Assembly (NCBI RefSeq): GCF_022605165.1
Contig: NC_063072.1
Span: 620,001-684,000, forward strand
Source: Purpureocillium takamizusanense
Taxonomy: Eukaryota; Ascomycota; Sordariomycetes; Hypocreales; Ophiocordycipitaceae
Direction of reading: 5' to 3'
DNA: 64,000 nucleotides
A program made the translations under genes and the position numbers. A model generated the notes under the pieces. That model worked only from the letters and a program-made list of their open reading frames with translations, did not search any database and was not told where the DNA came from. Shown here one piece after another: positions 28,301 through 49,834 of this stretch (positions are counted from its first letter, which is position 1; each line of letters begins with the position of its first letter).

Positions 28301-30258
28301 GACGACTTTGCGTCCGAGGGCCTGCGGACGTTGCTCTACGCGTACCGGTACGTCGACGAGGACTCGTACGCCAGCTGGAAGGAACAGTACCACCGGGCGC
28401 AGACGAGCCTCGTGGACCGCCAGATGCTCATCGAAGAGGCCGGTGAGCAGATCGAGCAAAGGTTCGAGCTCGCCGGGGCGACGGCCATCGAGGACAAGCT
28501 GCAGGAGGGCGTGCCAGAGACGATTGACAAGCTGCGGCGCGCCAACATCAAGATTTGGATGATCACGGGCGACAAGCGCGAGACGGCCATCAACATCGGC
28601 CATTCGGCCCGGCTTTGCAAGCCCTACTCTGAGCTCTACATCCTCGACGTCGCCGAGGGCAACCTGCAGGAGTCGATGACGACGATCCTCAACGAGGTGG
28701 GCCGGGGCATGGTGCCGCACTCGGTGCTCGTCGTGGATGGGCAGACGCTCGCCGCCATCGACGCAGATAACGACTCGCTGCTGCTCTTCAACGACCTCGT
28801 GGTGCGTGTGGACTCGGTCATCTGCTGCCGGGCGTCGCCGTCGCAAAAGGCGGACCTGATCAAGTCGATCCGTCGCCACGTCCCAGACTGTATGACGCTG
28901 GCGATTGGCGACGGTGCCAATGACATTGGCATGATCCAGGCGTCGCACGTGGGCATCGGCATATCCGGGCGCGAGGGCCTGCAGGCGTCGCGCATCGCCG
29001 ACTACTCCATCGCGCAGTTCCGGTTCCTGCAGAAGCTGCTGCTCGTCCACGGCCGCTGGAACTACCTGCGCACGGGCAAGTACGTCCTGGCCACGTTCTG
29101 GAAGGAAATAGTGTTCTTCCTGGTGCAGGCGCACTTTCAGCGGTACACGGGGTACACGGGAACGTCGCTCTTCGAGTCGTGGAGCTTGACCGTCTTTAAT
29201 AGTGCCTTTACGTCGCTCCCCGTCATCCTGCTTGGCATCTTCGACCGCGACCTGGCGCCTGAGACGCTGCTGGCGGTGCCGGAGCTGTACACGTTTGGCC
29301 AGCGCAACGAGGGCTTCAACTTTGCGCAGTACTTTGGCTGGATGATTATGGGCACCGCGGAGAGCCTCGTCATCTTCTTCACCATGTACGGGGTGTACGC
29401 GCGGGCCCTGTTTACCAACGACACGGGGCTGTTTGCTATGGGCGTGATTTGCTTCACCGTGGCCGTCATCTTTATCAACATCAAGCTCTTGTGAGTGCTT
29501 TCTTCCTTCCTTCCTCTTTTTCTTCTTCTTCGCGGGTGCTTGCTTGTTTCCTGGCATATGCTGACCCGGTTTGTAGAGTGCTAGAGGTGCACAGCAAGAC
29601 GGCCGTCATATTCGGCGGGCTCATCATCTCCGTCGGGGGCTGGTTCCTCTGGAACATGATCCTGTCAGCCGTGTACAAGCGCCAGGTGGGACCGTACATT
29701 GTGCGGGACTCGTTCCTGCGCAACTTTGGGCGTGAGCTGCAGTGGTGGACGACGATGTTGCTGGGCCTGACGGTGCTGGTGGCGCTGGAGCTGGTGGTGC
29801 AGGGCGTGCGGCGGGTGTACTGGCCCACGGACCAGGACCTGATGCAGCGCATCGAGAAGGATAAGGGTCTGCGGTGCGTGATGCGGATGCATGCTGGCGG
29901 CGGCGGTGCTGACGACGAGGGCGTCTGTGATGATGACGATGCTGATGATGATGACCGGAGCGATGTTAGCGATGAGGAGGAAGAGTACGGCGCGCGTGGG
30001 GGCATTGAGATGCGCGAGGGCATCGGCAGCGGGAAAGGCGGCCGCGTGGTGCACCGTCACGCCGGTGACGACGACGACGAGGGCCGGACGCGTGGGAGCT
30101 ACGAGCAACAGAAGCAGCAGCAGCAGCAGACGGCGCCACCACAGAGACAGCACGTTAGGGTCAGCGTGGACGAGTACCGGCCGCCGAAGTGGTCGCACCC
30201 GGCGGAGGAGCGGGAGAATCCGTTTGACAGCAGCACGATGCCGGGGCGGGCGCTGTGA
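25382..30258 (+). CDS. dnf3: P4-type ATPase (phospholipid flippase), Dnf3-type
   Basis: Membrane pump that moves lipids from the outer to the cytosolic leaflet in late secretory membranes. Two exons, 25382-29490 and 29577-30258; the intron (GTGAGT...TTGTAG) lies between the last transmembrane helices and rejoins TT to A in frame. Length is 1596 residues. The order is a disordered basic N-terminus (1-150), TM1-2 (ILQMIPGLSTVG, then SMGKEGYDDYRRYKLDK), actuator DGET (about 387), a PVSL P4-type motif in TM4, phosphorylation site DKTGT (about 609), nucleotide-binding KGADN (about 829), GDGAND hinge (about 1175), TM5-10 and a cytosolic tail. The sequence after TM1 separates it from Drs2, Dnf1/2 and Neo1 types. 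The tail carries an Asp/Glu-rich run and a polyglutamine run. Ser/Arg-rich inserts inside the nucleotide-binding domain (about 855-950) are likely regulatory. Confidence 0.95.
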
Positions 30259-32599
30259 GATGGGATGGGATGAACGAGCCCCCTTCCCCCTGTCCCCTCC
30301 TTGCCGTGTTTTGTACGATGATGGGTTGGCTGTCCCAACGTTGGCGGCAATGGTGGCTTTGGGTTGGTCTTGGTGCTGCTTGCTGTCCGTTTAAGTTTAA
30401 GTTTACGTTTCTGTCTTTTGTTTTTGGCGCGGCGTTTGGGGGGGTTTTGCACATGGCCGTGGTTTCCATGCGGTGGCGGTGGCGGTCTTTCCTTGGGGGA
30501 CGGTGCGGGGCGGCGTTTTCGGGGGAGGGGGAGTTGGTGCATGCATGCATGAGTCTGGTGGCTGGGGATTAGTAGAACCTATACTATACGCATGGAGAGG
30601 AGTCGCAGTCGCAGTTGTGGATGCAGTTGGCAGTATCCCCAGCGGGTATACCTTGTACCTTATACTTATGCTTATGAGTATGGTTACGATTGAAGGACGT
30701 ACACGTCGGTATGGTTGTGAATGATTACGATTGAACAAGTATATGCGGGTATGGTTAATGTGGAACGCTCGTGTTGACGTTTGTTCTTCTCCTTTTCGGA
30801 AGAGATGAGACGCTCGTGATTACAGGGCGCCATCGAGTTGTTAGGTAGTAGTATGTATGTATGTATACCAGACGTAGCGACGGGACTGGAGCCTCGGGCG
30901 TTATCAGAGGTGCGGAAAGGGGGGACGAACTGACATACATGAAGGACGGGCCACCCACCGTCCCAACAAGCTCACTCCGGCACAACCACCATTACTTTAC
31001 TACCACCACTATTCCACCACCGGAGACTCAATTCACTCAAGCCATTCACTTTTCACCGGTCGTGCACATGACATGAAAAAAAAAGTGTCATGATACCCGT
31101 TCCATCGGAAGTTGACTTGACTGATTGACTGAATGACATCAAATGCTCCCTGATCCCGAGATTAGAAAAGAAGAAAAAGATAGAGAGAAGGGAAACAAAA
31201 AAAAAAGCCATGCGAGAAAGAGAGAGAGAGAGAGAGAACTCAATATTGAGGCGGGATGACGGGTTCGAGCCCGTCGTCGGCTACCTCCGTACATATCAAT
31301 GCGATCCTGCGCAGGTCTGGTACTACCTACCTTAGTTGCCTACGAGATACAGACAGGTTCCTGTTATACGGCAGGCTGCATATGTGACGCCCCCTCCTCC
31401 CCTCCCCCCCGTCGCCCCAAGAGCGCCATCTCGTCTCACGGCAGGTAATAAACAAGACGAGGGGGGGGGGGGCAGGCGTGCAGGAGGGAAGCATTGACAA
31501 CGCGGGCGTGTGTACACAGCCCGGGCGAGCTGTACATGTAGTGCTGCCTTGCTGCTTATTGTTCGTGGCGATATACAAACATACATATATATAGTAGATG
31601 TGCTACGGGACTCTGACCAACATGAACACGGTGCGGACCGCCTGTGTCATCCATTTGATCCCATGGGGGCGGGCGGGCGGGTGTACCGCACCGGGGAGGA
31701 TTTGCGGTGACAGCGGCGGTCTGGTGGCGGCAGCGGCCACTCCCGTCGTTAATCCATCCATTTTGATCTCGTGCTCCCCACCTACCCACGCGACGGGCCC
31801 CTTGCATTTTCTTGTTCCTGTCTTCCCGTCTCGTACTACTTGGTGGGCATCAAATTGGGCGTGCTACATAGTCAGCACGAGAGTCATCTCCGATGATGAT
31901 AGAGGGAAGGATGTGGCGGTGGCTGGCGACGGCCCCCCAACCGCGTCACTGGGTATTATCTATTTCGTCAGACGGATTGTTGGCTTTTACCAACTAGTCG
32001 ATGCAATATGTCGGGAACGTGGGGGGCGGGCGGGCGGCTTGGAGGTTGCTTGTCGGATGGATGCTTTCCGTGAAGTATATTCCCGGCGCGAGCGCCCGCC
32101 CGCGCGCCACACACCGGATACTAGCGTTTGAAGGCGGCTGCAGGTTGCCGTGAGTTGTGTTTGCTGTCATGTGTTGTTCTGCCGAGTTGGGATTGATGGC
32201 GTTTTGTGTCAAGCAAGCAAAAGTTGCCACAATCGCCCCCCTGCAATTACTAGACTTGCCCCCCCTCCCCCCCCTTCTTCTCTCTCTTTCCCCGCGGCCG
32301 CATGATGAAAGTCATGACGTTCACTGCAGAAACCCCTCTTCCGCCTTGTATGACGGGTTGAACCCTGACGGCCCGTCGTGGCGTCCGGCTTGAAAGAGGG
32401 TTCAATGAGGGGTTCATATTGCTTGCGCCCGGGTTATTAGTGCATAACCGGACTGATGACCCTCCCAATCCTGTCCATCTCCCAACCAAAAGAGCAGTTC
32501 CTGTCGTCGATCCCGGTACCTTTTTCTAATGCAACCCACGAGCCTCGGATATAGTCCCGAACGATTCGGTGGAAGATGCGGATTTAGCTCCGGTAGGAC
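30259..32599. other. Intergenic region, 3' of the flippase, up to the AT-rich block
   Basis: No supported gene. It holds poly-A runs near 31075 and 31198, a GA array, a 12-G run (31461-31472) and a GTATGTAT stretch (about 30850). An open frame from 31598 to 32131 has no recognisable protein character. The composition shifts from GC-rich to AT-rich from about 32560. Confidence 0.5.
31218..31238 (+). repeat. (GA)n microsatellite
   Basis: About ten GA units in non-coding sequence. Confidence 0.85.
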
Positions 32600-33180
32600 C
32601 GCGTAAGCTAATAAGGTAATGCATAGATGCCCAACGCGAGCCGCCCCGAAAGGTCGCGCAACCGTTACGCGACCTTAACGATATACCTAGTAACTAATAT
32701 CTGTGTTTTAGCTACTAGGAAATAAGGACTTTACTACTATATCGTCGATAATAATTACGTCTAGAGAAAGGGGAGAATTATTTTAAGACGACCCCGTTAT
32801 TCTTAATAATTAATATCTTTTAATCTCTTTACTACTTATATTTAAGTATTACATAAACTATATTAATAATAATATTTACTAAACGCTAATATCTTAAGTA
32901 AATCGCGAGTTACGCTAAAGGTAATAAGTAGTACTATTCGCAGAGCCGGTTTTCTCTAGTTATAGGGTTTCTACCCTAATTTGTTTCTAGCTAATCTTAT
33001 ACTATATAGCTCGCTATACCTAAATATAGTTCCTAGCCTGAGCTAGCGCGCGACGACGACTAAGTCTGTCGTTAGGTAGCCTGCTATATATTCCGGCTCG
33101 TTGTTTAAGGTGCAATCTTAGCTTTGACGTAAGCTAGCTGCGCGGTCCGCGATGGAATATTCATTGAGTATATTCATTAG
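32600..33180. repeat. AT-rich, RIP-like block (left edge of accessory island)
   Basis: The composition changes abruptly to A/T-rich sequence full of TA steps (TAATAAT, TATATA), while CA and TG steps are scarce, especially from 32690 to 33000. That is the dinucleotide signature expected from repeat-induced point mutation of a former repeat. No open frame survives, so the parent element cannot be named. A 9-bp inverted repeat (AAGGTCGCG at 32650-32658, CGCGACCTT at 32668-32676) lies near the left edge. Confidence 0.7.
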
Positions 33181-33199
33181 CGTTGCTAGAGTTGTCATG

Positions 33200-33712
33200 T
33201 TAGGCGATAGCGCTGCCGGCCTGCGTGACTACTACTACGCCGTGGCTGATGAACAGCACGCTATAACTGCCATAAATCTCGGCGAGCCATTCTAGGCAGG
33301 TTGCAAATTTAGACGGGACAGAAACGCTTCTACTGCTGTTGGCGCACCCGAAGACGCCGATTTGATGGCCATCTTGAGTCATAATGGTGCACAGCAACGC
33401 CTCAGCGACCAAAGCTGGCCACGGGATGCCCAGGACACGGACGCCAGTAATGTGGTGGCATAGACCCAACATTTCTCGGGGATGAGCACAAGCACATATC
33501 CCATCGGTTGCTGAACGGGCTATAAGTCTCACTGTGGGCGTGCGATGGATCGAGTTCACTGGAAACGTGGAAGTTCTTCACTCTACATCGGTAGTCCCAA
33601 ACCAGATGTTAGGTCGCAGCTTGTTTCGCAGCATGTTGGTGTAGCAGGTCTCAAACAAGAAAGCATGCGCAACGCCTTGGTCTGAATATCGGGTCGAGGG
33701 TACGCCGTCGGT
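33200..33712 (-). pseudogene. Broken 3' part of an unrecognised protein gene
   Basis: Read on the minus strand, a protein-like frame runs from about 33712 to a TAA at 33200, with one in-frame TGA at 33580-33578. Both sides of that stop look like the same protein: upstream there is an aromatic/Cys stretch (HAFLFETCYTNM, then NIWFGTTD), downstream a Cys/His-rich stretch (GICACAHP, LGLCHHITG) and a hydrophobic segment. An intron hiding the stop would be only about 28 bases, too short. TGA can arise from TGG by one G-to-A change, the RIP-type transition expected beside the AT-rich block. The 5' end is lost; a frame change near 33712 may be a second lesion or an acceptor site (TTTAG). It lies about 145 bases downstream of the LysM gene on the same strand. 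I do not recognise the family. Confidence 0.55.
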
Positions 33713-33855
33713 CTAAACGATGCATGGAACGGGGGGGAATACTCTTCGACGGCACTCCACGCCCAGAGACAGGACTTTCAGCACTTCGAGGACGAATCAT
33801 CTTAAAAGATACCCAAGGAGACTGCGTGTCGCCAGTGTCCTCTTTGACATACTAT

Positions 33856-34774
33856 CTATAGGGTAACGCCTACACAGGCGTTTGCATCGGCCCAGAGGGT
33901 AGAGCAGTCTTTCCCCACTCCACGATTCCAACGCATGAAATCATCCAAGCTAATGCCATACTTAGACGCGACTGTAGAACAGGACTGCCCTTTCTTCACG
34001 AGGTGGAATTTATTGCAGTTATGAACCATCTGCGGTTGGGCCGGCCGGGGAGTCTCAATGCTACATGTAGTGAAAGGACTCGTGTCAGGATTGCGTAGAT
34101 TGGACATAGGGGCAGTGGCAGATGATATACCTGTTCGGAGACTGCGTAGGGACCGTCGCCCGCTGTCCGCCAACGACGGCCACGCAGGCATTAGCGCCTG
34201 CCCATAAACCATTGCAAGAGCTGCCGACATTGGCGTTCCAAACCATAAAGTCCGCGACGGAAATGCCGTGCTGGTCGGCAACGCTTTGGCAGGTCTCTCC
34301 AAGCTTGACCAAGTAGAAGGCGTTGCAGTTGGACACCATACCGGGCTGGGCAGGAACTGGGGTGACGATTTTTTCTATTGCCATTTCTTTTATCAGCGAG
34401 GGCGCGTAGCAGTATCGAGACATTCCATTTCAGCTCTTACCGTTCGGGGCCTGCACGGGACTGGGCGTGGTGGTTGCAGTGGTGACCACTGATGAGGACA
34501 CCTCGAGGACGGACTCTACACCTGTGGGTGTGGGGGTGGTCGAACTTTCCACACAGTAATTGCGGCCCGCCTCTAAACCACTTGCACAATCAATACCCGT
34601 GTTGAAGGACGTAAATTCATCTTGAGTTATGCCCCAGGCCTCAGCCATAGACGAGCAGGTGTCACCATCACGGGCCGCCGTGCTAAAGGTACAGGCTCCT
34701 GGCAAAACGGTCGCGTGGCCGTGTGCATGGAGGGCGGCAAGAAGCCAGGCCGTGATGGCGGTAGACTTGATCAT
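33856..34774 (-). CDS. Secreted protein with three LysM domains (LysM effector type)
   Basis: Secreted chitin-binding protein of 260 residues. Three exons on the minus strand: 34774-34441, 34374-34131 and 34060-33856; donors GTAAGA and GTATAT, acceptors ATAG and GTAG, all junctions in frame. A signal peptide (ITAWLLAALHAHGHA) is followed by LysM1 (about 25-75, Cys-paired), a Thr/Ser/Val-rich linker, LysM2 (FYLVKLGETC, about 128-178) and LysM3 (FHLVKKGQSC, about 208-260). There is no catalytic domain or membrane anchor. Fungal LysM proteins of this layout bind chitin fragments or coat hyphae, so host receptors or foreign chitinases have less access; this role is inferred from the family. For intron 1 an alternative acceptor 12 bases upstream also stays in frame. 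It sits in the same low-GC island as the LysM chitinase at 41367, a common pairing in Sordariomycetes. Confidence 0.9.
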
Positions 34775-35532
34775 GTTGCGGATGAGAAGACAAGCCGCGT
34801 AGGGTAGTTTGTTCGTGCACAAAAGGGGGCCTGAGTTCGAACTGAAGATGCATTCAGGACCCGAGTAAGACTGATGCGGGCAGTAATATACATCATCTCC
34901 TCGCAGACCATGGGCTGAATCCGGTTCTTACCATAAAGTCCACGTGTCTCGGAATCACCGAGCTTTCCGGTCACGAGTCTCGACAACTTCGGGTACGGAA
35001 CACGCCAGTGACATGCTGTCCGCACGATGAAGAAGGCCCACCATGTGGTATATCCTGGATACAACCAAGGATAGTAGGTGAATGACCCCATCTTGAATTA
35101 GACCCAGGGGCATAGTAATATGGCAACCTACAGTTAACGTGTGTCATCTAGGCAAGCGTCAGACCCTCCTACTTCTTCCGTACCACTGTACCACTTTGCA
35201 AGGATGTGCGTGTCCCTTTCCGGATATTGAACTATATAGAACCCTTGTTCTACTGCATTGAGTTATCTTTTTAAGAAGGTATACCGCCGAGCGAGAAAAA
35301 AGCTTCATCATGGCCATGAATTACTCGACATAACCGCGTTGAAGGTGTGCATTCATCTTGGCCTCTCACGCATTACGTTTCCCCATCGTAAAAGCAAGAC
35401 TACAGAAAAGCGTTTGCGGGGCCTGAGTTGGTGGCATCGGCCGAAGTATGACGCTCAGCGACGGCTGTTGAGTTGTTGAGCCATCCGGCCCGAGCAACAC
35501 GGGTTGGACGGGGCCCTATGAGCACTATTTCC
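34775..35532. other. Intergenic region, promoter side of the LysM gene
   Basis: About 760 bases. The first 300 should include the LysM promoter on the minus strand. Small open frames (34771-35091 minus, 35258-35479 plus) have no recognisable features. Otherwise nothing is seen up to the left terminal repeat of the MITE-like element. Confidence 0.45.
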
Positions 35533-35850
35533 CAGGAGTTATTCCTCGACCCCTATTTTTCAATAGAAAGCCCCCAAATCGTAGCGCGTACGACTTTGAC
35601 CTAGTCTTTCGTAATACACCTAACATACCCCGATAACAGCTGCTAAGAAGGGACGCATAGTCAAAACATCTTAGGGTTAGTAGCGGTTAGGGCTAGCCTT
35701 AGGATCAGGGTTAATATAGTATATTCCTTTTTATTTGGGCGTTATTACAGTGGTTTGCGATACGAAGGTTAGTAAAACGAGGAAATTGAGGTGCGTGGGA
35801 ACGATTTGGGGACTGCTTATTGAAACATGGGGGTCGAGGAACAACTCCCG
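35533..35850. mobile_element. MITE-like element with 50-bp terminal inverted repeats
   Basis: A non-coding 318-bp unit with terminal inverted repeats of about 50 bp (left 35533-35582, right 35801-35850) that match at roughly 42 of 50 positions; both read GGAGTTRTTCCTCGACCCC near the tip. Differences are mostly transitions, as expected from ageing or RIP. The element is flanked by TTTCC(C) on both sides (35528-35533 and 35851-35856), a likely 5-6 bp target duplication. No transposase fits inside. The interior carries several TTAGGG-like units (about 35671-35720). The superfamily is not clear from these ends. Confidence 0.75.
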
Positions 35851-36671
35851 TTTCCCTCGTCGAGTGGGTGCATGAGCAAGCACCTCGTGTAGCGCGCCGC
35901 TTGCGCTATACGGACCGTTGCTTATGATATTGTTGAGAGTTCATACTAGAAAATTCATGTGGCTCCTCCATGAGTGGAGTCGGCTCCAATTTGTCGTATG
36001 GCTGTTGCGGCATAAAAGTCCTGATAACTAGTGCACCACGAGCGTGCCCGTGATACACTTTTGCTCGATTGACGCAACAATGGCTCGACATGATCGACGA
36101 AACTCTGTTGTCGCAGCCGCAGTTGTGCATGCCTCGTTGATGCGAGCATTGATCAATCTGCTGGGCTGCGCTTACCTGCCCCCAAAGGAGCGACTGCCTG
36201 TATGCAGATGGTTCACAGCTCCACCTGACTGTAAACCAACAGCCGTGTTACTCGTCTGCCGTCACATCCGCCACGTCACTGTTTATGCTGCTTGTTCCAT
36301 CTGCGGACCCTATGTTACCATCGAGACGATACCATGAAAGTATTGCCCTGGTGAAGTCGGTCGCGTGAAAACGCCGTTTCTACCTCAGCAACCTTACGAA
36401 GCGGTCTGGCACGTTATCGAGGTTCTTTCTCGTGTGTTCGTATGCGGCAGTAAGTTGGTGAGATCCGTATGTCGACTGCCGTGGCTTCGCCTGCTGATCG
36501 AGTAGGCCCCAGTTCCAATTCTCAAGGCAGAATACAGGCAAAGCCTACAGTACCCCTCGCTACCAGTAACAGTGGCCTCAGTCAGATCAACTCGACCATC
36601 ATCTTCATTCCCCATTTCCTACACCACGCTTTTTTCCGCCATCACTGTCTGCCCTGCCTGCTGAGTCAACT
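35851..36671. other. Intergenic region upstream of the F-box gene
   Basis: About 820 bases with no supported gene, of mixed composition. The last 150 bases are C/T-rich and are probably the F-box leader. Confidence 0.45.
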
Positions 36672-38663
36672 ATGCAAGCCGAGGCGAGTTCAATCCAGCA
36701 ATGGGGCTCTACGACTGCCTGTTTGTTGGAGAGGCTACCACTGCTTGCCCTGGAAGCCGTCTGCGAGTACCTCGCTACTAGCAAGAGGGATCTGTGTGCT
36801 TTTTCTCTTACATGCGTTCACTACGCCACCATCTCCAGACGTTACCGTCTCCAGCACATATGTCTCAAAGATACACCAGAACTTCAACATGACCTGAGCC
36901 GCCTGCAACGGGTGCTCAGGCCAAACCATGATCTGCACTCACATTATGTGCGACGCTTGACACTCACTCATGCACCCAGGCCCCAGACGCGAGACGACGG
37001 CTCTGGAGAGGATGACGTCGAAATAAAGAGGCCAAGACTGCCACAACTCAAGAGCTTCTTTGAAGCTCCTACAACCCTCTGCTCGACACTGGACGGTCAA
37101 AGAAAGTACTCTCCTTTCTATGCCTCGACGCCTGAGATGAAAGCGAAGGTTAACGCTTTGTGGATGCCTGTTGCAGAATTCATCGGGAGCTTGCCCTGTC
37201 TGGCAGACTTGGTATACGATTGCACCGACCAAGTGCCCACATGCTTGCTACAGGCTGTGCATGAGAAGTGCCCAACAGCCCGCCTTCACGTTAACCATTT
37301 CAGCTTAAGGAGCCTCTATCAGCCTGTACGCGACCCGCATCAACCCATTAGTTCAGATGAGTACATGCTGGTAACATCACCTTGTTTGTGCAGCATCGCC
37401 ATGAAATGGTTTATGTTTGACGTGGATGGGCGCATTGGATTCAACAAGGATGCAGTGATGCAAATGGTTTCATCATCCGCACCGAACCTCAAATCTGTTG
37501 AGATGGAGCCCGATTATCCTGGCTATAGCCCGCAGATGCGGCTAGCTTTGCAGATACCTCAAGACAGGCTACCGAAGTGGAAAGGCTTCAATGCCCAGGG
37601 CCTACAATTCCCTTTACCAAGGAATGGACATCTTCACCGTCTGACTTGCCGCTCCTCCGAGATCGATGGCTGGGCTGAAGTCACCAATTTCAAGGAATTA
37701 TTAGAGTTGAAGGTCCAGTATGTATACTTGCGCGATGTTCGGCGTCTACATAGCGCAGCGCAGTGTGATGGCTTCTCATCTCTCCGGTCGCTGGCTCTGA
37801 CCTTCTTTTGCCGTGATGAATGGACAGGAGATACCTTGGACGGAGAAATAGCCATGTTCATGCGCACATTGAGGCCTCTCGAAACCCTCTTCCTAGGGGG
37901 CTTTTTAGGAGAAGCCACATTACAAGCAGTACTTGAGAAGCACGGCGCGACACTAAGGCAGTTCCAGTGGGTACCATCGCGGTCAGATTCGAGGGACGAG
38001 ATGCCGCTCGCCCTTCGGCCACAACATATTGAGCGACTTCCTTCATATTGTACGGTTCTAGAAAGACTTGAGATTTTAGTACCTCGGACCGAAGGAGATG
38101 AACAGGAGACAGCAATTTACCGAACACTCGGACAACTCCCACGATTAAAATATCTGTCGCTGAGGTTGAATTGCTCGTGCTCTCGACCGTCCAGACGAAG
38201 TGATCCCGCGCCACAACTAGACACGAGAAGGCCCATCCCTACGAGCACTTTACGCCGTGCTCTTGTCAACAGCGCAGTCGACTCCCGCCTCGCCTTGTCC
38301 ATTTTCGAGGTCCTTACCGCGCAGAGGCAGAATTGCGTTCGGTATCTGAAGGTACAGGTCGATAACGTGGGAGAATTCTCACCACTGTCATACGATAGCG
38401 ACTTTGACCGTGTGCTGGAATGGGTTGCGCGCAATTGGGTATGTCAACGGGACAGCGTGAGTGGTACTGTGAGCGTACGTGAGATTGCCCACGACGAAGG
38501 CCGACGAAACAACAGTGACGGCGAGCTATTGAGGGCCGATTTCGATGAAAGGGATGATCTCAGGGATGTTTGGACCAGTATTTGGCCAGGATCGATCGGG
38601 GACCGACGAGGCCAGTGGGCGAGCCTACCGCTTGCCGGTGTTCAATCACCGTCGGGTTCGTGA
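36672..38663 (+). CDS. F-box-like protein with long leucine-rich C-terminal region
   Basis: Probable substrate adaptor of an SCF ubiquitin ligase, 663 residues in a single exon. The N-terminal motif (LLERLPLLALEAVCEYLATS, then DLCAFSLTCVHYATIS, about residues 17-57) has the hydrophobic spacing of an F-box. The rest alternates leucine-rich strands and helices (LRSLALTFFC, LETLFLGGF, LKYLSLRLN), as in degenerate leucine-rich-repeat F-box proteins of filamentous fungi. No signal peptide. Codons end in A/T more often than in the genes before 31 kb, matching the other island genes. The target protein cannot be deduced. Large, fast-evolving F-box families are common in accessory regions. Confidence 0.8.
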   Translation: MQAEASSIQQWGSTTACLLERLPLLALEAVCEYLATSKRDLCAFSLTCVHYATISRRYRLQHICLKDTPELQHDLSRLQRVLRPNHDLHSHYVRRLTLTHAPRPQTRDDGSGEDDVEIKRPRLPQLKSFFEAPTTLCSTLDGQRKYSPFYASTPEMKAKVNALWMPVAEFIGSLPCLADLVYDCTDQVPTCLLQAVHEKCPTARLHVNHFSLRSLYQPVRDPHQPISSDEYMLVTSPCLCSIAMKWFMFDVDGRIGFNKDAVMQMVSSSAPNLKSVEMEPDYPGYSPQMRLALQIPQDRLPKWKGFNAQGLQFPLPRNGHLHRLTCRSSEIDGWAEVTNFKELLELKVQYVYLRDVRRLHSAAQCDGFSSLRSLALTFFCRDEWTGDTLDGEIAMFMRTLRPLETLFLGGFLGEATLQAVLEKHGATLRQFQWVPSRSDSRDEMPLALRPQHIERLPSYCTVLERLEILVPRTEGDEQETAIYRTLGQLPRLKYLSLRLNCSCSRPSRRSDPAPQLDTRRPIPTSTLRRALVNSAVDSRLALSIFEVLTAQRQNCVRYLKVQVDNVGEFSPLSYDSDFDRVLEWVARNWVCQRDSVSGTVSVREIAHDEGRRNNSDGELLRADFDERDDLRDVWTSIWPGSIGDRRGQWASLPLAGVQSPSGS

Positions 38664-39195
38664 CTATTTAAACCTTCTCGGTTCAGTAGATATCGACTTC
38701 ACCGCATCACCTGCATGGGCGCCTATTCTTGCTCCACTATGTATTGCTAAGTTTCAGCAGTCAATCTAGATCGCTCTATTAGTTCCTTACCTTTTTGGTG
38801 CTCGAAGAGGCTTCTTTACGGAGAATATATGGGTAAGGCCTGATGTAGATCTGAAGACGAGCCATACTTCTTTTCCTTCCGGCACCCTCGCAAATTGGAG
38901 GTAGAAGTATATCGGCCATATTCCTTTTTTTGGTATCACAAGCTCATGAAGTTCAACGGAGCCGGAACACTATCAAATAAATACTCATGCAAGCAGTCAC
39001 CCCAGGGGATATGCGAATGACAAGTCGCCCAAGGCGGTGCCCGAAAAGAAAGTATAAATCTATCATGGCATTGCCAACGAGACATCGTTGAACACAATTC
39101 AGTGATGCACTGCGGTTTGTGAAGCATTTTCCCAACCACATTATAAACTTGGTGAAATGGCGATTGATTTAACCCTTTAACTCAGAGTGACCCCG
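38664..39195. other. Convergent intergenic region
   Basis: Lies between the 3' ends of the F-box gene (+) and the secreted-protein gene (-). Only small open frames and AT-moderate sequence; nothing else seen. Confidence 0.5.
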
Positions 39196-40533
39196 CTAAG
39201 GCAATTTCATGAATCTCCAGCGCTTTTCTAGGAATAGACGCCATGCTCTTTGCCCTTGCCCGTCGCTGTCCGGATCGTATTGGAATAAATAAATGCCTCT
39301 ATGCGACCTGTCTATGAGTGCTGCATCATCTGTGTCAAAGTAATTTAGAGCTTGGTAGGGTAGGATGCACTCTTCCTTCTTAAACCTTTTACCAATAAGT
39401 TGTTCCACCTTTCTCTTGATTTCATTGTTACGCACTGCGTAACGCTCCTTTTCGTCGTCCCCCATGACGGTCGGAACAGAGATATAAAGCCTCGTCTCAT
39501 CATCATCGCGGTTGAAAAGGCTCGGATTGATTGGGCTCCCCACAGGTGGGATGTAGGGTTTCCCCATCTCAGGTTGTCCGTTCCCATCGAGTTTGACCTT
39601 GTGAGGAGTCGGACGTGTTACTGGGATTCCCTCCATGGCGTCGAGAACTCTTTCCTTAAAAGCGCGATTTCTACCGGTCCCGGTATCTACTGTGCCGTGA
39701 GAATACGTTTCCCAAAAGTGCGCCATCCAGATAGCTCTGTTGGAAATTAGGGCAACCTGTGTTCAAATGAGCTTACAAAAGTTTCGCTAGTTCACTAGAA
39801 AGCTCCCCTATGTGGTACTGACCATGGTGCATCCGTGTATGCCGCCTGTCTCGAACTGAAATGGCTCATCTCCAAACTCCCGCTGGTGCATAACAGCGGC
39901 TTCATCGCCTGAGTGTGACAAGGTCGTCAGCAACGTTCCAAGGAATTCGCGCGAGTGAGATACCGGTATTTATAGAGATCAATGGGAAGTGGCTTGGTTC
40001 ACTAAATCAAAATTCTCCTCACCATTGAAGAAGCCGTCTGGCTCGCCAAAGTACAGCGTCTCATGCCCGTTGTGGACTTGTACAAGGTAGTGGTCGATTT
40101 CGGCCCCCAAGGGATGCTCATCGCCTGCATATGTGCTTGAAGTGGCATCCAGCCGAAATAGTCTCTTCTCGAGCACCCGCGGAGTTTCGATTGTACCGTT
40201 TAGCCCTGCCGCGTCGTAGAGTTGACTTGGTATACCGCGGCCTATGAGCTTGAGGTCTGCGGCCACCGCACACTGTCCTGCACCACAAACGTCTAGCTCG
40301 CATCGCGCACCACAGAAGGGCTGTTCTTCGAGGAGAGATTCTGGTTGGAAAAAAAGGGGCGGGAAATAGGATCTACCACATAGGCAATCAGGTAAGTGGC
40401 ATGCCAAAGAACTTAAGATACGTGACGATTGGAAGCTGCATAGAGTGTCTTACCCTCGACTGACAACTGACGTTGTCACCAAGGTGATGAGAAGAGACCA
40501 CAAACGTAGATGAGCCCCCGAGATGGGTGCCAT
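39196..40533 (-). CDS. Secreted protein of unknown family, divergent from the chitinase
   Basis: I do not recognise the family. Four exons on the minus strand: 40533-40454, 40372-40023, 39908-39823 and 39756-39196; donors GTAAGA, GTGAGG and GTCAGT, acceptors GTAG, TCAG and ACAG, all phases consistent, giving 358 residues. A signal peptide (LWSLLITLVTTSVVS) is followed by a four-cysteine cluster (PFCGARCELDVCGAGQC, about 43-59), a HYLVQVHNGHETLYFGEPDG block (about 120-139), a conserved-looking core HGCTMVALISNRAIWMAHFW (168-187), then a hydrophilic C-terminal half with TPHKVKLDG and a final RAWRLFLEKRWRF. No catalytic motif, transmembrane helix or GPI signal. It shares a promoter region of about 830 bp with the LysM/GH18 chitinase, so the two products are probably made and secreted together. 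Confidence 0.85.
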
Positions 40534-41366
40534 TTCTCTGTAACTATGCTAGGGTTTTGACAAAAATACTGATGATAGTAGAATACAAGCGTCTAGATCA
40601 GGTAATGACTGGCTATTAAAGGCTTCATGGTCGAAGGTAAGGGCCACCACTCGTACCATCCTCCTATAATGCCCTATACAGGAGGCCGAGCAGTCGATTG
40701 TATAATCAAGCTTGGCGACTTTTCGGGCTCCGGCCGTACTTCGGTGGGTCTCAGACGGGCGGAACAATATCTCGCTACGTATAATCTTGGTCGAGGCGAC
40801 CAAAAGAGCGAGAGGGGAAATCTGCCGTAGCATAAAAAGGATCCTCCTGTCGTGCGAAGCTCTACTCCTGTGTGCCAAAGTCTGAATTTGGGTACACAGA
40901 GAGCCCCTCCTTGTGATCGTTGCATCAACTGAACCGTTACATACATCTCCCTTCTAGAACCAAGAATACAATAAGGTATTAATTGCCGCATCTGGAGGTT
41001 GATATCGGCTCGGTTTTAAGAATAGGAGTGCGGCGCTGTCAACCGTATGCACATTATGCTTTTGGGTTTGTAAAGCAGCCTCCACTTGAAGGCTTTACTT
41101 CGATAACAGTACCCAGCTATCTCTAGACTGTATGCCCAAAGTATTGAAGACAAACGAGATGCATGTTCCTTTTCTGGAGATATGAGGTCCGATATTAATC
41201 AGGCAGCAGTCATCTCGCTCTGCCCCAGCATGTGGACAATGCAGTCATCTGAGGGAGATCAATGTCAGTACTCCCCAGGCACCGAGGCAGCGTTATATAT
41301 GCGGACCTGGGGACCGTATTAAGCCTCTGCCGTGACCTCACAGTCAAGGCAGTTCAAATTGCGACC
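40534..41366. promoter_or_regulatory. Shared divergent promoter of secreted protein and chitinase genes
   Basis: An 833-bp non-coding gap between two divergently transcribed secreted-protein genes. It holds no other gene. A TATATA element lies near its right end and would serve the chitinase. Co-regulation is inferred from the geometry. Confidence 0.6.
41293..41300 (+). promoter_or_regulatory. TATA-like element of the chitinase gene
   Basis: TTATATAT lies 67 bases before the ATG at 41367. The frame is open back to an ATG at 41262, but that ATG is upstream of this element, which supports 41367 (or 41385) as the real start. Confidence 0.45.
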
Positions 41367-44300
41367 ATGATCTTGCAACGCATAATGCACCTCAACGGTC
41401 CAGCGGGCAAGCAACCAGCTGGCGGCCTTTCAACCCTATTGCTTTTGTTATGCGTGTTGTCATTTTTTATCTCTGGAAGTCAACAAGAATCGCCGTACGG
41501 CTCGTTCTCAAACTTGTCCGGATGTCCGAGGCCATGTGACAGAGGCAACAGTTGGACACCTTACCACGACACACGCGGAGTAGAAACATGCAATCAGACA
41601 ATCATCGTCAATTTGGGTCTGCATAGCAGGGTCCATGTCGGGGCGACGCCTGGAATCTTTCCTGCATGCACAGTTGATCATCAGCCAACGCGCCGAGAGT
41701 GGCCATTCCCGTTTCACAGCCAGTCGGGCTCGCCCGTTGTGGCTGGGCGACTTGGTGTTCGTACTGAGAATCAGAAGCCGAATTTGCAAATTTCTTGGGA
41801 AGTCGATGACAGCTCAGCTGATGGGATAGAGTCCGAGAGATCGGACCTGGTTGGGGCCTTGATCAATTGGATCCAGACAGACGACAGCGGACACACCCCG
41901 ATTGTCGTTCTGTCTAAAGCCGGGCGCACCGTTTTGGGCCTGTATGCTGGCTCCAAGTTTCCCAAGCAAAGCGTTATCCATGTGCTCCTAGAATTCCAGA
42001 GGAAAAGGATTCCAAGTGCTAACTCGATTATTGCACAAGTGTGCAATGATCTCTCTCAGAGCACCGAAATACTTGGCATTGCTGCAGTCAGCGATGGTGA
42101 GCTGAGCTCGGTTATCAAAATCATTCAGCAGTGGGAAGATGCGGGCTGTGTTGAGGCTATGAACGAAAGCGAAACGCAGAAAGCCGTTCCATCAGAGATT
42201 GAGCCTCAGTCCAATAGCTCATCCATACAGGCTACATTCGAAGCGGATGAACACTCCAAGCTTTCTAAACGATCAACCTGTCAGTACACACAGGCTGCTG
42301 CAGACGACGGTTGCTGGGCACTCGCAAATCGATGCAAGACAACTGAGGGGAGGTTGCGTCGGTACAACCGCAACAGAGACCTCTGCAGCACACTCAAGGT
42401 CGGTCAGTACGTCTGTTGCTCCCCCGGCGAACTGCCCGACTTTTCTCCCCAGCCCGGCCCAGATGGCTCCTGCAAGACCTACACGGTTAACCCTGGCGAC
42501 ACCTGCTACGCCATAGCACTCGCAAACTCTATGACTGTCTCTCAAATCGAGGAGCGCAACAAGAAGACCTGGGGCTGGGCAGGGTGCCAGTATCTCATGG
42601 CTGGCCAAGTCCTCTGCCTGTCCGAAGGGTCACCTCCAATGCCGGGTCCCATCAGCAATGCGGTCTGCGGCCCGCAGGTGCCAGGGACGGAAAAGCCTGC
42701 AGACATGTCCAAGCTTGCGGGGTTGAATCCATGCCCCCTGAACGCCTGCTGCAATGTTTGGGGCCAGTGTGGAATCACCGCGGATTTCTGTATCCCCAGT
42801 CCAGCAGACACCGGTGCCCCTGGCACGGCAAAACCCGCATCAAACGGCTGCATATCCAGTTGCGGCTTGCAAGTTGTCAATAACATTGCGCCGCCGCCAT
42901 CGTTCATGCGGATTGGTTACTATGAGGCATGGAACTTGGAAAGGTCCTGTTTGCACATGCGGGTAAGTCATGATTGATAGTTATGGCTGCATCTCATTGA
43001 GCACGCTTGTCCAACTAATACTATAGCCTCATCAAATCGATACCACCCACTACACACATATAGTAAGCGGATTTGATTCAACCACATAAACTTCATACTA
43101 AACAGAGAAAATGCCAGCATTTCGCCTTTGCAAATATCAATTCGAATTTCGAGGTAGATCTTGGGAAGCTCCGAGACACGTTTGACCAGTTCAAAGCCCT
43201 CAGATCAGTGAAACGCGTCTTATCACTTGGAGGCTGGTCTTTTTCGACAGACCGTGACACTTTCTCAATATTCAGGGAAGGAGTGACTGCATCAAAACGC
43301 CGGCAATTCGCAACTAATGTGGCCAAGGTACGTTATATTCACGATACGATTACACTTGCGAGCGCCTGCGCTGAGGTTCAATAGTTCATTACCGACGAGA
43401 ATCTGGATGGCGTCGACTTTGACTGGGAGTACCCTGGTATAGAGACTTGATACCGAATCCTGTTATGCCCTCTCGCTGATGTACTCCCGTAGGTGCGCCT
43501 GATATACCTGGCATCCCGGCCGGTGGCCAAGATGACGGCAAAAACTACCTCAGGTTTCTGAGGCTAGTTCGAAGGGCACTTCCAGCAGACAAGACGATCG
43601 GAATAGCTGCCCCGGCTTCGTTTTGGTATCTAAAGGGGTTTCCAATCGCAGAGATTGCACAAGTAGTTGACTACATCGTATACATGACGTACGATCTTCA
43701 TGGGCAGTGGGATTATGGTAACCGCTGGTCGACGTAAGCTCACATATAGAGAACGACAAAGTGCAACTACTGACAGAGTACATAGGGATGGTTGTCCCAC
43801 AGGGAGCTGTCTCCGACACCATCTCAACCAGACTGAAATCGAATACTCTCTTGCCATGGTTACCAAAGCTGGCGTGCCAGCGAACAAGCTCATCATCGGT
43901 ATGGCGCTGTACGGCAGGTCATTCAGGATGGCAAGACCGGGTTGTTATGGCCCAGACTGCTCATTTACTGGCCCAAACTCAGGTGCACGCCCAGGGAGAT
44001 GCACAAACACAAGCGGCTACATCTCCAACTTTGAGATCCGGGAAATCATTGCAAGCGGAGGCAAGGTTACGCAGCACTCGGACAAAGATGGAGATATACT
44101 TGTGTACGACGATGTACAATGGGTGTCTTGGATGTCAAAAGAGAGGTATGATAAACAAGTGCAATGGATCGCCGACCTAAATTTTGGCGGGACTTCGGAT
44201 TGGGCCATGGACCTTGATGCGGATTATGACACGGATACAAGCCCTCGCGGCGGAGACTCGGGGTCGGGTCCTATCTTCATCAGCCCCGATCTATACAAGG

Positions 44301-45782
44301 AACGGCATCCAAAGGTGGGATGCATTCCTCCGTGCACATTTGTGTTTCCCCCCTGGGTCCTGCGAACACCAACGACCATCCACGTGCCGCCTGCCACGAT
44401 TACCTATGAGGAGAACTGGGGTTTTGAAACAACGTTTAGAGGGACCACCATCACGGTTCCAGCCGCGAGCATCACCAGCACCGTGGTCACTATTCCACCC
44501 ATAACGACGACGGCCATTGAGCTATGGAACGTTGTATGGGAAGAGCGCGAAGAGGAGGACAACCACGACAACGCAACAGTCATTTGGCTGACGTCTAGCA
44601 TTAACATCCCCCCGATCACTATAACGCAGAGTACGAGGTCGGGCGAGACGGCTGCCCCAGTCACTTGGACCTTTAGTCCCGGGCCGTACCCAGCTCAGAA
44701 GACAGACAAGCCGGACCCTCCTCCGCCCAAGAAAGACAACAGGCCGGATCCTCCGCCGAGGACAGACAGACCCGACCCTCCGCACAAGACACACAGGCCG
44801 AGCCCCCCGGCCAAGAGTAACAAGCCGGGCCCTCCACCCAAGACACACAAGCCGGACCCGCCGCCCAGGGGCTTCCCATCAACGGTCAGGTTCACTAGAA
44901 GCAACCCGCCGCTGACGAAACCGACCTGCCATCCACCCAGTTCATGTGGCTCCAAATGTCGAGTGAACTGCAACCCCCCGGACAGTGGATGCAAGGGCAT
45001 ATGCGGCTGCATCGGCCCGTTCTGCGATATCAACTTGAAGAACTGTGTCGGTCCGGGATGTGTCGCGTACGGCGGTTCGAGCGGGCCAGATAAAGAAGAC
45101 TGTCGAAAACACACCACGGTCTCCTTTTGCGAGGTAGGGTGCTCGGTGATGCGATTCGACAGGACCACGACGACCCATTGCGGCAGGGAAAAGTGCAGCA
45201 GGACAATGACGGGCTGTAACACGCGAGGCAGCACCACGACGACTACGACTACTCTATCCTGCGGTGCTGCGCATCATGTGTACACATACAATCCCAATGC
45301 TCCCGCTCCAATGCTTCGCGATGGCTGGTACTCTACCATGACCCGCCCAAGAAGCACGAAAAGGCCGGTATGATCCTCCAGTCTCTCGCCTGACCGCTCC
45401 CACATGCAACCACACTGCCTCAGCTCCTGCTGCTAATTGCCTACTGGACATGAAGAACGCAACTCCGCCGCCGGGCACGCGATGCGAAGGGGACTCGGAG
45501 TGCGACAGGTACAAGTGCACCGAGGGCTTGCAGCCGGGCTGCTTGGTCAAGGCCATGGGCGGCTCCAGGGCCGGAACATGTCAGTGCGTGCCCAAGGAGG
45601 CGGCGGCGTCGTCGTCGGCGACGCCGGCGCCACCAAAGAAGACGGCAAGTCCACCGCCGGCGAGGCGATACTGTGACTCGCGGTCCGATTGCGCCATCTG
45701 GACCTGTCGCGATGGGTCGAAGCCCCTGTGCGATACGCGGGCCTCTGGAGACCCGTTTACGAAGTACTGCCGCTGTGGGTGA
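41367..45782 (+). CDS. Killer-toxin-like chitinase: LysM, CBM18, GH18, Cys-rich tail
   Basis: Secreted chitin hydrolase of GH18 subgroup C, about 1347 residues in seven exons: 41367-42962, 43027-43062, 43118-43327, 43385-43436, 43493-43733, 43786-45367, 45456-45782. All junctions keep frame; exon 2 is only 36 bases. A signal peptide (LSTLLLLLCVLSFFISGS) precedes an N-terminal region of unknown fold (to about 300), a degenerate LysM (about 304), a clear LysM (CKTYTVNPGDTCYAIA, about 369-420), a CBM18 chitin-binding domain (CPLNACCNVWGQCG, about 455) and the GH18 barrel (about 515-830). The catalytic motif DGVDFDWE (622-629) is intact, and QWDYGNRW, LYGRSF and FGGTSDWAMDL are present. After it come Thr/Ile-rich sequence, a PPPKTHKPD-type proline-rich stretch and Cys-rich segments, with two six-Cys modules in the last exon. 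The family resembles the zymocin alpha/beta chitin-binding subunit. The last intron's acceptor is chosen because the alternative CAG gives a stop. Confidence 0.93.
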
Positions 45783-45899
45783 GGTGTCTGCTCATAGTCA
45801 TGCTTGGGTTTCTATAATACGGTTCGTAGAAACGTCATGCAAATGCCGTCACGGCACGATCAACTAGAGCAGAATTAGACTTGTATTGTGACTATAGTT

Positions 45900-46340
45900 T
45901 GAACGAGGACTTGGGCTGTAGGTGAGAGTAATATTGCCGACACTCCTACCACTATAGTACTTGGTCGGAATTTCCTCGTATAGTGCTCTAAACGTAGTTT
46001 GCGCCGCTTACCGTCCCGTCGCCCCGTTATCAGCTAATGCCCCCCTATGTCTCCTATCCCTTAGTTAATATAGCTACGTACCTAGGCTCGAGGACTAGTG
46101 CGCCCGCTATAAGTATAGGATAACATCTAGGATCGACTATATAGTAGTAGCGGTAGATATTTTATTACATAAGGTTAGATATAGGAGCTATAACTAGAGG
46201 ATCTTAGCGGTAAAAGACGATATAGTATACGAGCTATTAGAACGATGTGCGGTATAAGGAGCTATCTAGAGGTATATTATCTAGCGTAGTTTCCCGCGGC
46301 GGTAGAGTCACTCCTATGGAGCCTAGCGAGCTTCTGAGAA
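45900..46340. repeat. AT-rich, RIP-like block (right edge of accessory island)
   Basis: TA-step-rich, CA/TG-poor sequence (TATAGTAGTAGCGG, TATATAGTAG) from about 46050 to 46300 with no surviving frame. Its composition mirrors the block at 32600-33180 and it changes sharply to GC-rich sequence at about 46350. Probably a RIP-degraded repeat that cannot be named. Confidence 0.65.
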
Positions 46341-47343
46341 CTAATGAACTATGACTATCCTAGATGCTGCGCCAGCCGCCCCTCCTCTTGCGCCACAGAG
46401 ATGCCTGGCTTATTACCGAGGTCGCGCGACCACACCCGCATGGCTCACCCGGCTCATCCAAGGTCGCGCGACTGGCCAGAGCACTAGAGCTACCCTCGCA
46501 CTTGCAACCAAGTCCCGGCCGAGAGACAACAGCAAAAAGCAGCCCCCCCCCCCCCCCCCCCGTCCCCGCATGCGCCCCAAGGAACCCGCCCCCCCATAAG
46601 AGGCGTTCTTAGCCCCTGCTGAAGCGGGCAAGGTGCGAATACCACCTCGGCAACGACATCCGACGACGAAATGAAGAGCTTCCTGATACCGCCCGTCGAC
46701 CTTCTTCTTCCAGCGCGTCCGTGTGTTCGTGCGCGGCGGCGGGGGGGCGAGGCGCCGGTTCGCGCGCTCCGCTCGCAGCGTCACACATGCGACCCCCCCA
46801 GCCGTGGGCCCGCAGATTGTTACCATGTCCTGCACGTCTTCGCGGTGGCCGACAAAAGGGCGGGCGACTGCATGGTTGAGGAAGGAAGGTCGCCCGGGCC
46901 ATGAGCGATCGTGACCCCTCCCCTCCCACCGCCCCGCGCCCGGCCGGGGTTTAATGTTCCGTCCTCGTGAGAATGGGGAATGGAGTCTCCGACTGCGGCC
47001 TTTGATATGATCTACGAAGTACGAAGTATACACCGCCGGCTGCGTGCTATGTGACGCTGCGGCAGGTACATGTAGGTAGCCTGTTGCACAGGGTCTCGTC
47101 GAGCCGTGACCCTGTCTTGTCCAGTCCGTATATAAAGCCTCGGCCTGCCGTCCCAGTTTGCTTGTTGGTTCGTATACTACTGTCTTGTCTCCTGCAGATA
47201 TACCGTAGACAACAAACAGGCATCGGCCCGTGCTTGCTAGCTCCCGCTGCCGAACCTTCTACTCTCTTTACTTCTCCCCGGCAGTGTCATTGAGGTCCCC
47301 CCTTCCCCTTCCTCGCCGCGTCTCAGCTACCTACCTACCGGCC
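46341..47343. other. Intergenic region and promoter of the sedolisin gene
   Basis: GC-rich non-coding sequence with two GGTCGCGCGAC copies (46424-46434 and 46463-46473), a 19-C run (46543-46561), and a doubled TACGAAGTA motif (47013-47028). The leader starts after the TATA element. No supported gene. Confidence 0.5.
47129..47136 (+). promoter_or_regulatory. TATA box of the sedolisin gene
   Basis: TATATAAA lies 208 bases before the start codon, preceded by the doubled TACGAAGTA motif about 100 bases upstream. This spacing suits a fungal promoter with a leader of about 170 bases. Confidence 0.55.
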
Positions 47344-49289
47344 ATGATCGGCACCTTGGTCCCGCTGCTCGTCGCGGCAGCCCTGGCCGCCGCCTCGCCC
47401 CTCGGCCAGGACATGGTCACGAAGCAGGCGCTGAGAAAGGCCTCCAGCGGCTGGGAGTTCAAGGCCTCCGCGCCGGCGGACCTGACGCTCAACATGCAAA
47501 TCTCCCTCAAGGAGCAGAACATGGACAAGCTGCAGCAGCGGCTCCTGGAGATGAGCAACCCGGAGCACGCCGACTACGGCAAGCACATGTCCAAGGCGGA
47601 CATTGAGGCCCTGACGGCGCCGTCGGCGGCCCACGTCGGCGCCGTCAGGAAGTGGCTCGAGTCGCACGGCGTGCGGGCGGGCGACGTCGTGAGCGGCACC
47701 CTCGCCGTGACGATGTCGGCGACGCAGGCCGAGGAGCTGCTCGGGGCCAAGTACGGCGTCTACTACCACGCGCAAAAGGGGGTGTACACGGTGCGCACCA
47801 CGCAGTACAGCCTGCCGCGGGACGTGCACGACGCCATCGCCATGGTCCAGCCGACGACCCTGTTCAGCGACATGAACATGTCCAACGGGCGCACGCGGGT
47901 CACGGCCTTGTCCTCCCGTGTGGCCAGCGGCGGCGTCGCGGACGGTGCTGACAAGGCCGTGAGCTGCGATCAGGGGCTCACCCCGCCGTGCCTGAGGGAT
48001 CTCTACAAGATCGAGGGCTACACGCCCCAGGCCAACAAGACGACCATTGGCATCACGGGCTACCTCCATGAGGTGGCCGGCAAGGCGGACCTGCAGTCGT
48101 TCCTCCAGCAGTACACCAAGATTCCTTCTGACGCCACGTTTGGCGTGCATCTCATCAACGGTGGCACAAACGACGGCAACGGCACCGGCGAGGCCAACCT
48201 CGACACGCAGTGAGTTACCTGGCCCCCCCTCACCATATGTTTTGCTGTGTATACCATATGCCATTATGCCCTGTGACGATAACGAAGTTCCTTCTAACCC
48301 CGAGGCCAGATACGCCATGGGCCTGACGTACCCGATCCACAACGACTTCTACTCGACGGCGGGCTCGCCGCCCTTTATCCCGGACGCGAGCACCCCCAAC
48401 AACACCAACGAGCCGTACATAGAGTGGCTCAACTACATGAACGGGCTCGACAAGGTGCCAACGACGGTGACGTCGTCGTACGGCGACAACGAGCAGACGG
48501 TGCCGCGCGACTACGCCGAGACGGTGTGCAACCAGTTCATGAAGCTGGCGGCGCGCGGCGTGAGCGTCCTGGTGAGCTCGGGCGACGGGGGCGTCGCGGG
48601 CGGCCAGACGAGCAAGTGCGTGAGCAACGACGGCAAGTGCACGAGGAAGTTTTTGCCCACGTGTGAGTCCTCCAGCAGACATTCATCTGTATTTTTCTGC
48701 CATCATCATGTCATGTATGTGGACTATGTGAGAGAGAGAGAGAGGCTGACGATGGCATCATCATCATCAAGTCCCCGCCAGCTGCCCCCTGGGCGTCACC
48801 GCCGTCGGCGGCACCACCAAGAGCAACCCCGAGGTCGCGGCCGGCCTCTCGTCGGGCGGCTTCTCCGACTACTTCCCCGTCCCGGACTACCAGTCGGCGC
48901 AGACCAAGGCGTACATTTCCGGGCTGGGCGACAAGTACGCGGGCTTGTACAACCGTGGGGGCCGCGGCATCCCCGACGTGGCGGCGCAGGCGGAGCGCTT
49001 CGTCGTCGTCATCGGCGGCAAGAGCCACCTGCTCGCGGGCACGAGCTGCTCCTCACCCACGTTCGCGTCGGTGGTGGCGCTGCTCAACGACTACCGCGTC
49101 GCCGAAGGCCGCGCGCCCCTGGGCTTCCTGAACCCCTGGCTGTACAGCAAGGGCCACGCGGGGCTCAACGACATCACGCAGGGGACGAACCCGGGGTGCG
49201 ACACGGAGGGCTTCTCGGCGGGCAAGGGCTGGGATCCGGTGACGGGCCTGGGGACGCCCAACTTTGTGGAGCTCAAGAAGCTCGTCTAG
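47344..49289 (+). CDS. Secreted sedolisin (S53) / tripeptidyl-peptidase-like protease
   Basis: Acid serine-carboxyl peptidase, 578 residues, secreted as a proenzyme that frees itself at low pH. Three exons: 47344-48209, 48310-48662, 48772-49289; donors are GTGAGT, and the acceptors join CA to A and T to TC in frame. A signal peptide (LVPLLVAAALAAASPLG) precedes an activation prodomain (about 20-200: MSKADIEALTAP). The catalytic residues are present: Glu283 and Asp287 in EANLDTQY, the oxyanion Asp in SSGDGG, and Ser498 in AGTSCSSP. The calcium-site strand GWDPVTGLGTPNF is near the C-terminus. Length is normal for the family. Extracellular nutrition or degradation of host protein is the usual role. 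The second intron contains a GA run and a CAT run close to its acceptor. Confidence 0.95.
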
Positions 49290-49834
49290 TGGCGGGTTTG
49301 TTGCCTGACGATGGTGAAATAGGGGTTACACCAAATGTGCTTCGTACATATATGCATGTATATGCTGTCTTTGCGAGCATGGGTAGACATGAAGACGGCC
49401 TCATCTACATGTACCTAGAAACAACAACGCATAGCGTCAATAAGCACACGTCTCTACCTAGCATTTGATCATGTCGGATCGAGAAGAAGCGGCTACATGT
49501 GGGTGCCGCTGCACGTTGAGCGAGACGATGTCGATTCACACAAGTCATGGATGAGATACATTGACATCAGAATCAACGCACAGCCCCATACCTCTAAATT
49601 AAGAGCATCACACATCATACATGCAGTTGTACCATTGAGGAGTCTCGCATTCGGCAGCATGTGCTGCTAGCAAGACTCCTCGCGACAAAACTGGCTCCTG
49701 CGCTTCAGACGCTTCAGAATAAGGGGAGAAGGAAGACTCGACACACCAGACGCTCCATGAGCAAATGCACTCACCACGGCAAGAACCCATCCAGCCAGCC
49801 GTCATCGTCTTCATGTTCAGCATCAGCATCAGCA
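49290..49834. other. Convergent intergenic region
   Basis: Separates the 3' ends of the sedolisin (+) and oxidoreductase (-) genes. It holds a short AGCATC array that reaches the end of the oxidoreductase gene (about 49817-49840). Nothing else seen. Confidence 0.5.

Follow-up and report, generated by a model that had tools for sequence, protein, structure and literature searches.

The zymocin of Kluyveromyces lactis is an α/β/γ killer toxin whose γ subunit is a tRNase. Many filamentous fungi have killer-toxin-like chitinases, and what these might deliver, if anything, is to our knowledge an open question. The α subunit of the K. lactis toxin assists entry of the toxin and has an architecture like that of subgroup C chitinases (PMC4392113, which, like PMC7176902 and PMC3482391 below, is cited from excerpts). 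In Trichoderma, a LysM gene lies beside a subgroup C chitinase (PMC4392113), and in Clonostachys, chitin induces lysm2 and chiC1 together (PMC7176902). A 2012 survey names killer toxins as the systems in eukaryotes that come closest to bacterial polymorphic toxins, records at least 13 toxin domains passed to fungi, and, in the excerpts used, gives the CNF toxin domain only for gamma-proteobacteria (PMC3482391). Through a Cys and a His, CNF domains modify a glutamine of small GTPases by deamidation or transglutamination (PMC3482391).

The locus described here lies in Purpureocillium takamizusanense, on a 64,000-nucleotide stretch (the window) spanning contig C5:620001-684000 of a 35.57 Mb genome of 14 contigs. 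The published assembly of PT3, an insect-pathogenic member of the Ophiocordycipitaceae, comprises 35.6 Mb in 14 scaffolds with a mean GC of 57.76% (PMC9302088). Within the window, an interval bounded by two RIP-like blocks contains the genes of interest; the features, in window coordinates, are as follows.

25382-29494: flippase gene (Pfam match), left of the interval
32553-33072, no strand: left RIP-like block, in which two diverged repeats (32553-32930, 32923-33072) form a mosaic
33856-34774, minus strand: three-LysM secreted protein, 254 aa (splice model; exons 34774-34441, 34356-34131, 34060-33856)
35535-35848, no strand: MITE-like element with terminal inverted repeats of about 48 bp
36672-38663, plus strand: single-exon ORF, 663 aa, LRR-like at best, single copy
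39196-40533, minus strand: gene C, candidate secreted deamidase-fold protein, 358 aa (splice model; exons 40533-40454, 40372-40023, 39908-39823, 39756-39196)
40534-41366, no strand: divergent intergenic region, 833 bp, between the start codons of gene C and the chitinase
41367-45783, plus strand: killer-toxin-like chitinase, 1348 aa (splice model; Pfam; motif and hydropathy)
45900-46335, no strand: right RIP-like block
46336-46516, no strand: repeat of about 181 bp that abuts the right block and matches at 8 other places
47230-48213 (47344-48213 as ORF): right neighbour with a pro-kumamolisin activation domain (Pfam), therefore probably a secreted sedolisin-type protease

Both chitin-related genes proposed in an earlier note, made from the letters of this DNA, hold up. 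The three-LysM protein is matched by the Pfam LysM model over three stretches (E 3.8e-25), its secretion signal being judged from a hydrophobic N-terminus; with several LysM and no enzyme domain above the Pfam cut-off, it has the makeup of a LysM effector. The chitinase, whose last intron (45368-45452) is an inferred one, runs from a signal and an N-terminal region through two LysM, a CBM18-like domain, and GH18 to a Pro-rich and Cys-rich tail. Its proposed LysM/CBM18/GH18 composition stands for the two LysM and for GH18 (E 9.5e-51), while CBM18, at 27.1 bits, falls just under the cut-off of 27.8; hevein and wheat-germ lectin chains match at residues 449-492. The GH18 motif DGVDFDWE (DxxDxDxE) lies at residue 622, and the presence of LysM and a GH18 with this motif in one secreted protein is as expected for subgroup C. 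Beyond GH18 the maximum 19-residue hydropathy is 1.28, versus 2.36 in a paralogue on contig C4, and a hydrophobic C-terminal region like that of zymocin β was not found by hydropathy on the window chitinase. The shared chitin-related function suggested for the two genes is supported, and their genomic pairing is a known one (PMC4392113, PMC7176902), ordinary here because it has been described in Trichoderma and Clonostachys. When the genome was searched for LysM and for GH18, three more places were seen to have both, on C2, C4, and C8. At the start of contig C8 (C8:1-9500), GH18 pieces and LysM-rich reading frames lie together in GC-poor sequence.

Other parts of the interval fared differently. 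The MITE-like element was confirmed by its inverted ends of about 48 bp and by two other near-complete copies (74% and 72%); a copy at C2:1580269 has, by eye, an exact 8-bp flanking repeat, which suggests a hAT-type origin. The 663-aa ORF, which had been called an F-box protein, has no F-box match and only a sub-threshold LRR (LRR_14, 21.2 bits, cut-off 40). No sign of the broken gene was found: the stretch 33181-33855 has no second copy in the genome, and a 125-aa open piece, the only one tested, gave no Pfam match.

While the chitinase/LysM pairing is known, the partner, gene C, is new and appears to come from an undescribed family within a known superfamily. Recorded earlier as an unrecognised secreted protein, it indeed has a hydrophobic, signal-like N-terminus and no Pfam match (E up to 1). 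It lies head to head with the chitinase, is single copy in the genome, and occurs at one of the four LysM/GH18 places. Protein-database searches found six homologues, two unnamed and four named, from Microsporum audouinii, Seiridium cupressi, Lophiotrema nucula, and a Pseudogymnoascus, which we take to represent four classes of Pezizomycotina. Alignment of the seven sequences gives 44 invariant columns, including Thr171 as well as Cys170 and His185, which are separated by 15 residues and invariant in 7/7. Cys170 is the sole Cys common to all; P0001, P0004, and P0005 have no further Cys, but most or all of the N-terminal region is missing in these three. Upstream of the core, the window protein and P0006 share a Cys cluster (C-x3-C-x4-C-x4/5-C), of which P0002 has the last three Cys. 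Four of the five sequences that extend to the core start have KR or RR at that point (KR at 96-97 in gene C), and the pro-region may be cut off there by a Kex2-type protease.

Profile searches gave gene C no family. Pfam CNF1 (PF05785) matched neither gene C (E up to 1) nor the six homologues (E up to 10, at which the HMMER filters drop most weak matches). NCBIfam and PADLOC returned nothing for three of the six homologues, and a PDB profile search returned nothing. Of 38 pattern stretches from bacterial and archaeal genomes, none was a relative. Searching the genome with PF05785 gave no match, but its controls gave none either, so this says little. Pfam recognised no uptake domain in gene C.

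Models of two gene C homologues stand out, with modest to moderate scores, against a single group of solved structures, those with the Cys hydrolase/deamidase fold of CNF1/CNFy, NTAN1, CheD, BLF1, and YfiH. The best Foldseek rows are CNFy and CNF1, toxin catalytic domains, with BLF1 at row 6 (E 0.31 and 0.15 for the two models), while VIA puts NTAN1 and CheD level with the CNF toxin domains. CheD and NTAN1 belong to one superfamily with CNF1. YfiH and CNF1 are likewise placed together in excerpts of the 2012 survey (PMC3482391). On these models, gene C likely has the alpha+beta sandwich fold of the CNF1/CheD/YfiH superfamily. Two uncharacterised proteins of Mimiviridae sp. ChoanoV1 in BFVD (A0A5B8HVT9 and A0A5B8IFF4) match a homologue model (E 2e-4 and 4.3e-3), as does a Moumouvirus “CheD” protein in the viral library (E 0.12).

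We tentatively favour, at a little short of even, a model in which the locus provides a secreted effector of the deamidase type for use together with a chitin-binding chitinase, in a zymocin-like arrangement with another warhead. The model builds on the gene content, the signal-like N-termini, the orientation, the moderate-score fold match in the homologues, and the invariant Cys and His. The locus would serve an entomopathogenic fungus as a chromosomal attack unit. Its chitinase and LysM protein would bind and open target surfaces that contain chitin, or would protect the wall of the producer itself. The gene C product would combine a Cys-rich pro-region and a probable dibasic site of Kex2 type with a catalytic core that has the CNF1/CheD/NTAN1/YfiH fold. 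Once delivered into the target cell in cooperation with the chitinase, this core may deamidate (or transamidate) a target protein at the side chain of a glutamine or asparagine, which would make gene C the chitinase's enzymatic partner, parallel to the γ tRNase of zymocin. Two observations count against such a unit: the chitinase has no hydrophobic tail, and gene C is present at one of four LysM/GH18 places in one genome.

At C4:2787001-2797000 (2692-8316 therein), another killer-toxin-like chitinase, this one with a hydrophobic segment at its C-terminus, is divergent, at about 790 bp, from a signal-bearing orphan protein of about 287 aa, whose sole protein-database match is itself (JDV02_005503, 100% over 90%). 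This layout and that of gene C, divergent from its chitinase with 833 bp between the starts, are counted as support for a gene C/chitinase partnership. This C4 partner has no noteworthy Pfam or NCBIfam match and no PDB match below E 0.47; a weak PADLOC match to DrmC (E 0.022) was taken as chance. At the C2 locus, a DUF7136 protein and a LysM gene are near, and no head-to-head chitinase partner is evident among ORFs of at least 110 aa. Filamentous fungi might have modular chromosomal killer-toxin units in general, each a chitinase head to head with an exchangeable secreted warhead (here a CNF/CheD-fold deamidase, at C4 an orphan of another family); we consider this generalization unlikely as yet.

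The alternative that survives best is that gene C encodes a secreted deamidase-fold enzyme that acts outside cells, for example on proteins of the cuticle, the wall, or the surface of competitors, or as an amidohydrolase in nutrition, and lies beside the chitinase only via shared regulation. Such a role would suit a fold group that takes in the cellular non-toxins NTAN1, CheD, and YfiH, a chitinase without a hydrophobic C-terminal segment, and a protein without a recognised uptake domain. It sits less well with toxin catalytic domains as the best Foldseek rows, although VIA rates NTAN1 and CheD equal to these, and with homologues that number only six and are scattered over fungi, unlike those of a common nutritional enzyme. 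Moreover, the core has one conserved Cys and therefore no conserved disulphide. We regard this extracellular role as possible, if rather unlikely.

Coincidence is a further explanation, whereby an ordinary LysM/chitinase pair and an unrelated secreted gene lie amid repeat debris in a low-constraint region, gene C having no tie to chitin and its fold no chemistry. The modest fold scores and the presence of gene C at only 1/4 LysM/GH18 places agree with this. We judge pure coincidence decidedly unlikely.

The surroundings of these genes bear on a last alternative. As had been noted, GC is low between the blocks (0.522 at 33181-45900, versus 0.613 at 1-30260 and 0.588 at 46341-64000); of all 12.72-kb stretches taken in 500-bp steps, the minimum of the window begins at 31501 (0.511 versus a median of 0.596). 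Codons ending in A or T are also more frequent inside, GC3 being 0.54-0.64 in the four inside genes and mostly higher in the eight outside ORFs measured: 0.83 and 0.93 in those with Pfam matches (25382-29494 and 47344-48213) and 0.62-0.90 in six others, not verified as genes. The sharp edges that had been described did not hold on the left, where GC declines gradually from 30 kb and is already 0.543 at 30261-32559; 56001-64000 is likewise low (0.544). Low GC is found at two of the three other LysM/chitinase loci of the genome, C8 (0.46-0.53) and around the C4 chitinase (0.48-0.53), but not at C2 (0.54-0.61).

The RIP-like character of the edge blocks was borne out. TpA/ApT and (CpA+TpG)/(ApC+GpT) are 1.63 and 0.37 in block 32600-33180 (GC 0.38) and 1.78 and 0.42 in block 45900-46340 (GC 0.45), and none of 2000 shuffles preserving base composition attained either index for either block. 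In a comparison of 207 half-kb bins (128 from the window, 59 from the three other chitinase loci, 20 from ten arbitrary 1-kb stretches), the bins at 32501 and 46001 ranked 1st and 3rd in CpA/TpG depletion. Rank 2 went to the first 500 bp of C8, whose strong depletion resembles that of the left block. A simple RIP threshold was dropped as a test, as it flagged GC-rich bins too. The left-block repeats have at least 22 further matching places in the genome (69-95% identity). Alignment with nine of these loci, including L015 and L019, which are duplicates of each other, gave 358 transitions versus 109 transversions. The window had T or A in 222 of these transitions, and in 48/54 when set against L015, on C2, alone. 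This transition excess and the T/A bias in the window fit RIP. For the right block (45900-46335), a genome search found no second copy. At C2:4523044-4525035 and at C2:4556265-4558311, a copy of the left-edge repeat stands about 1.4 kb away from a fragment of a DUF3435 recombinase; these places are 33,221 bp apart and identical over 1698 bp, and so count as one observation.

The low GC and RIP-like edges are read as fast-changing, repeat-rich, weakly constrained surroundings rather than as a proven mobile unit. That the 13 kb form a single island, mobile or recently acquired and bounded by the ends of RIP-inactivated elements, along the lines of the mobile module suggested in the earlier note, is very unlikely: low GC and GC3 inside, a RIP-like block at each end, and few, scattered gene C homologues speak for it, but a single mobile unit is not shown because the blocks carry different, diverged repeats with different boundaries (best mutual match 18 bp, E 0.004; none above 19 bp), none of the eight genomic matches to the Starship-type DUF3435 recombinase is on C5 (where a RIP-damaged copy could escape detection), GC falls gradually from 30 kb, and the C8 and C4 loci, though not C2, are GC-poor too.

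In the open-licence PMC literature, searched mostly by title, we recognised no description of a secreted fungal CNF/CheD-fold protein beside a chitinase, which does not prove its absence. The fold match of gene C hints at a possible fungal weapon. With the predicted fold, a superfamily known for bacterial toxins would extend to secreted fungal proteins, and gene C, with its single conserved Cys, is a concrete candidate for what killer-toxin-like chitinases might deliver.

Among the known systems, CheD, NTAN1, and YfiH differ from gene C in being intracellular non-toxins, at 6-15% identity. CNF1 has the same Cys-His spacing of 15 (Cys866, taken from an entry title, and His881). For CNF1, CNFy, and BLF1, identity is 6-16%; gene C has no Pfam CNF1 match and, unlike bacterial deamidase toxins, is fungal, with a signal peptide and without bacterial delivery domains. 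The window chitinase resembles subgroup C chitinases in its signal, two LysM, CBM18-like domain, GH18 with DxxDxDxE, and nearby LysM-only secreted protein, and differs in its head-to-head deamidase-fold partner, no such partner being mentioned in the excerpts of PMC4392113 and PMC7176902. Compared with zymocin, the locus is chromosomal rather than on a linear plasmid, its candidate warhead has a deamidase fold rather than being a tRNase, and its chitinase lacks the hydrophobic C-terminal segment; what the two have in common is a chitinase with LysM, CBM18 (here CBM18-like), and GH18 beside a separate secreted warhead, here a candidate one.
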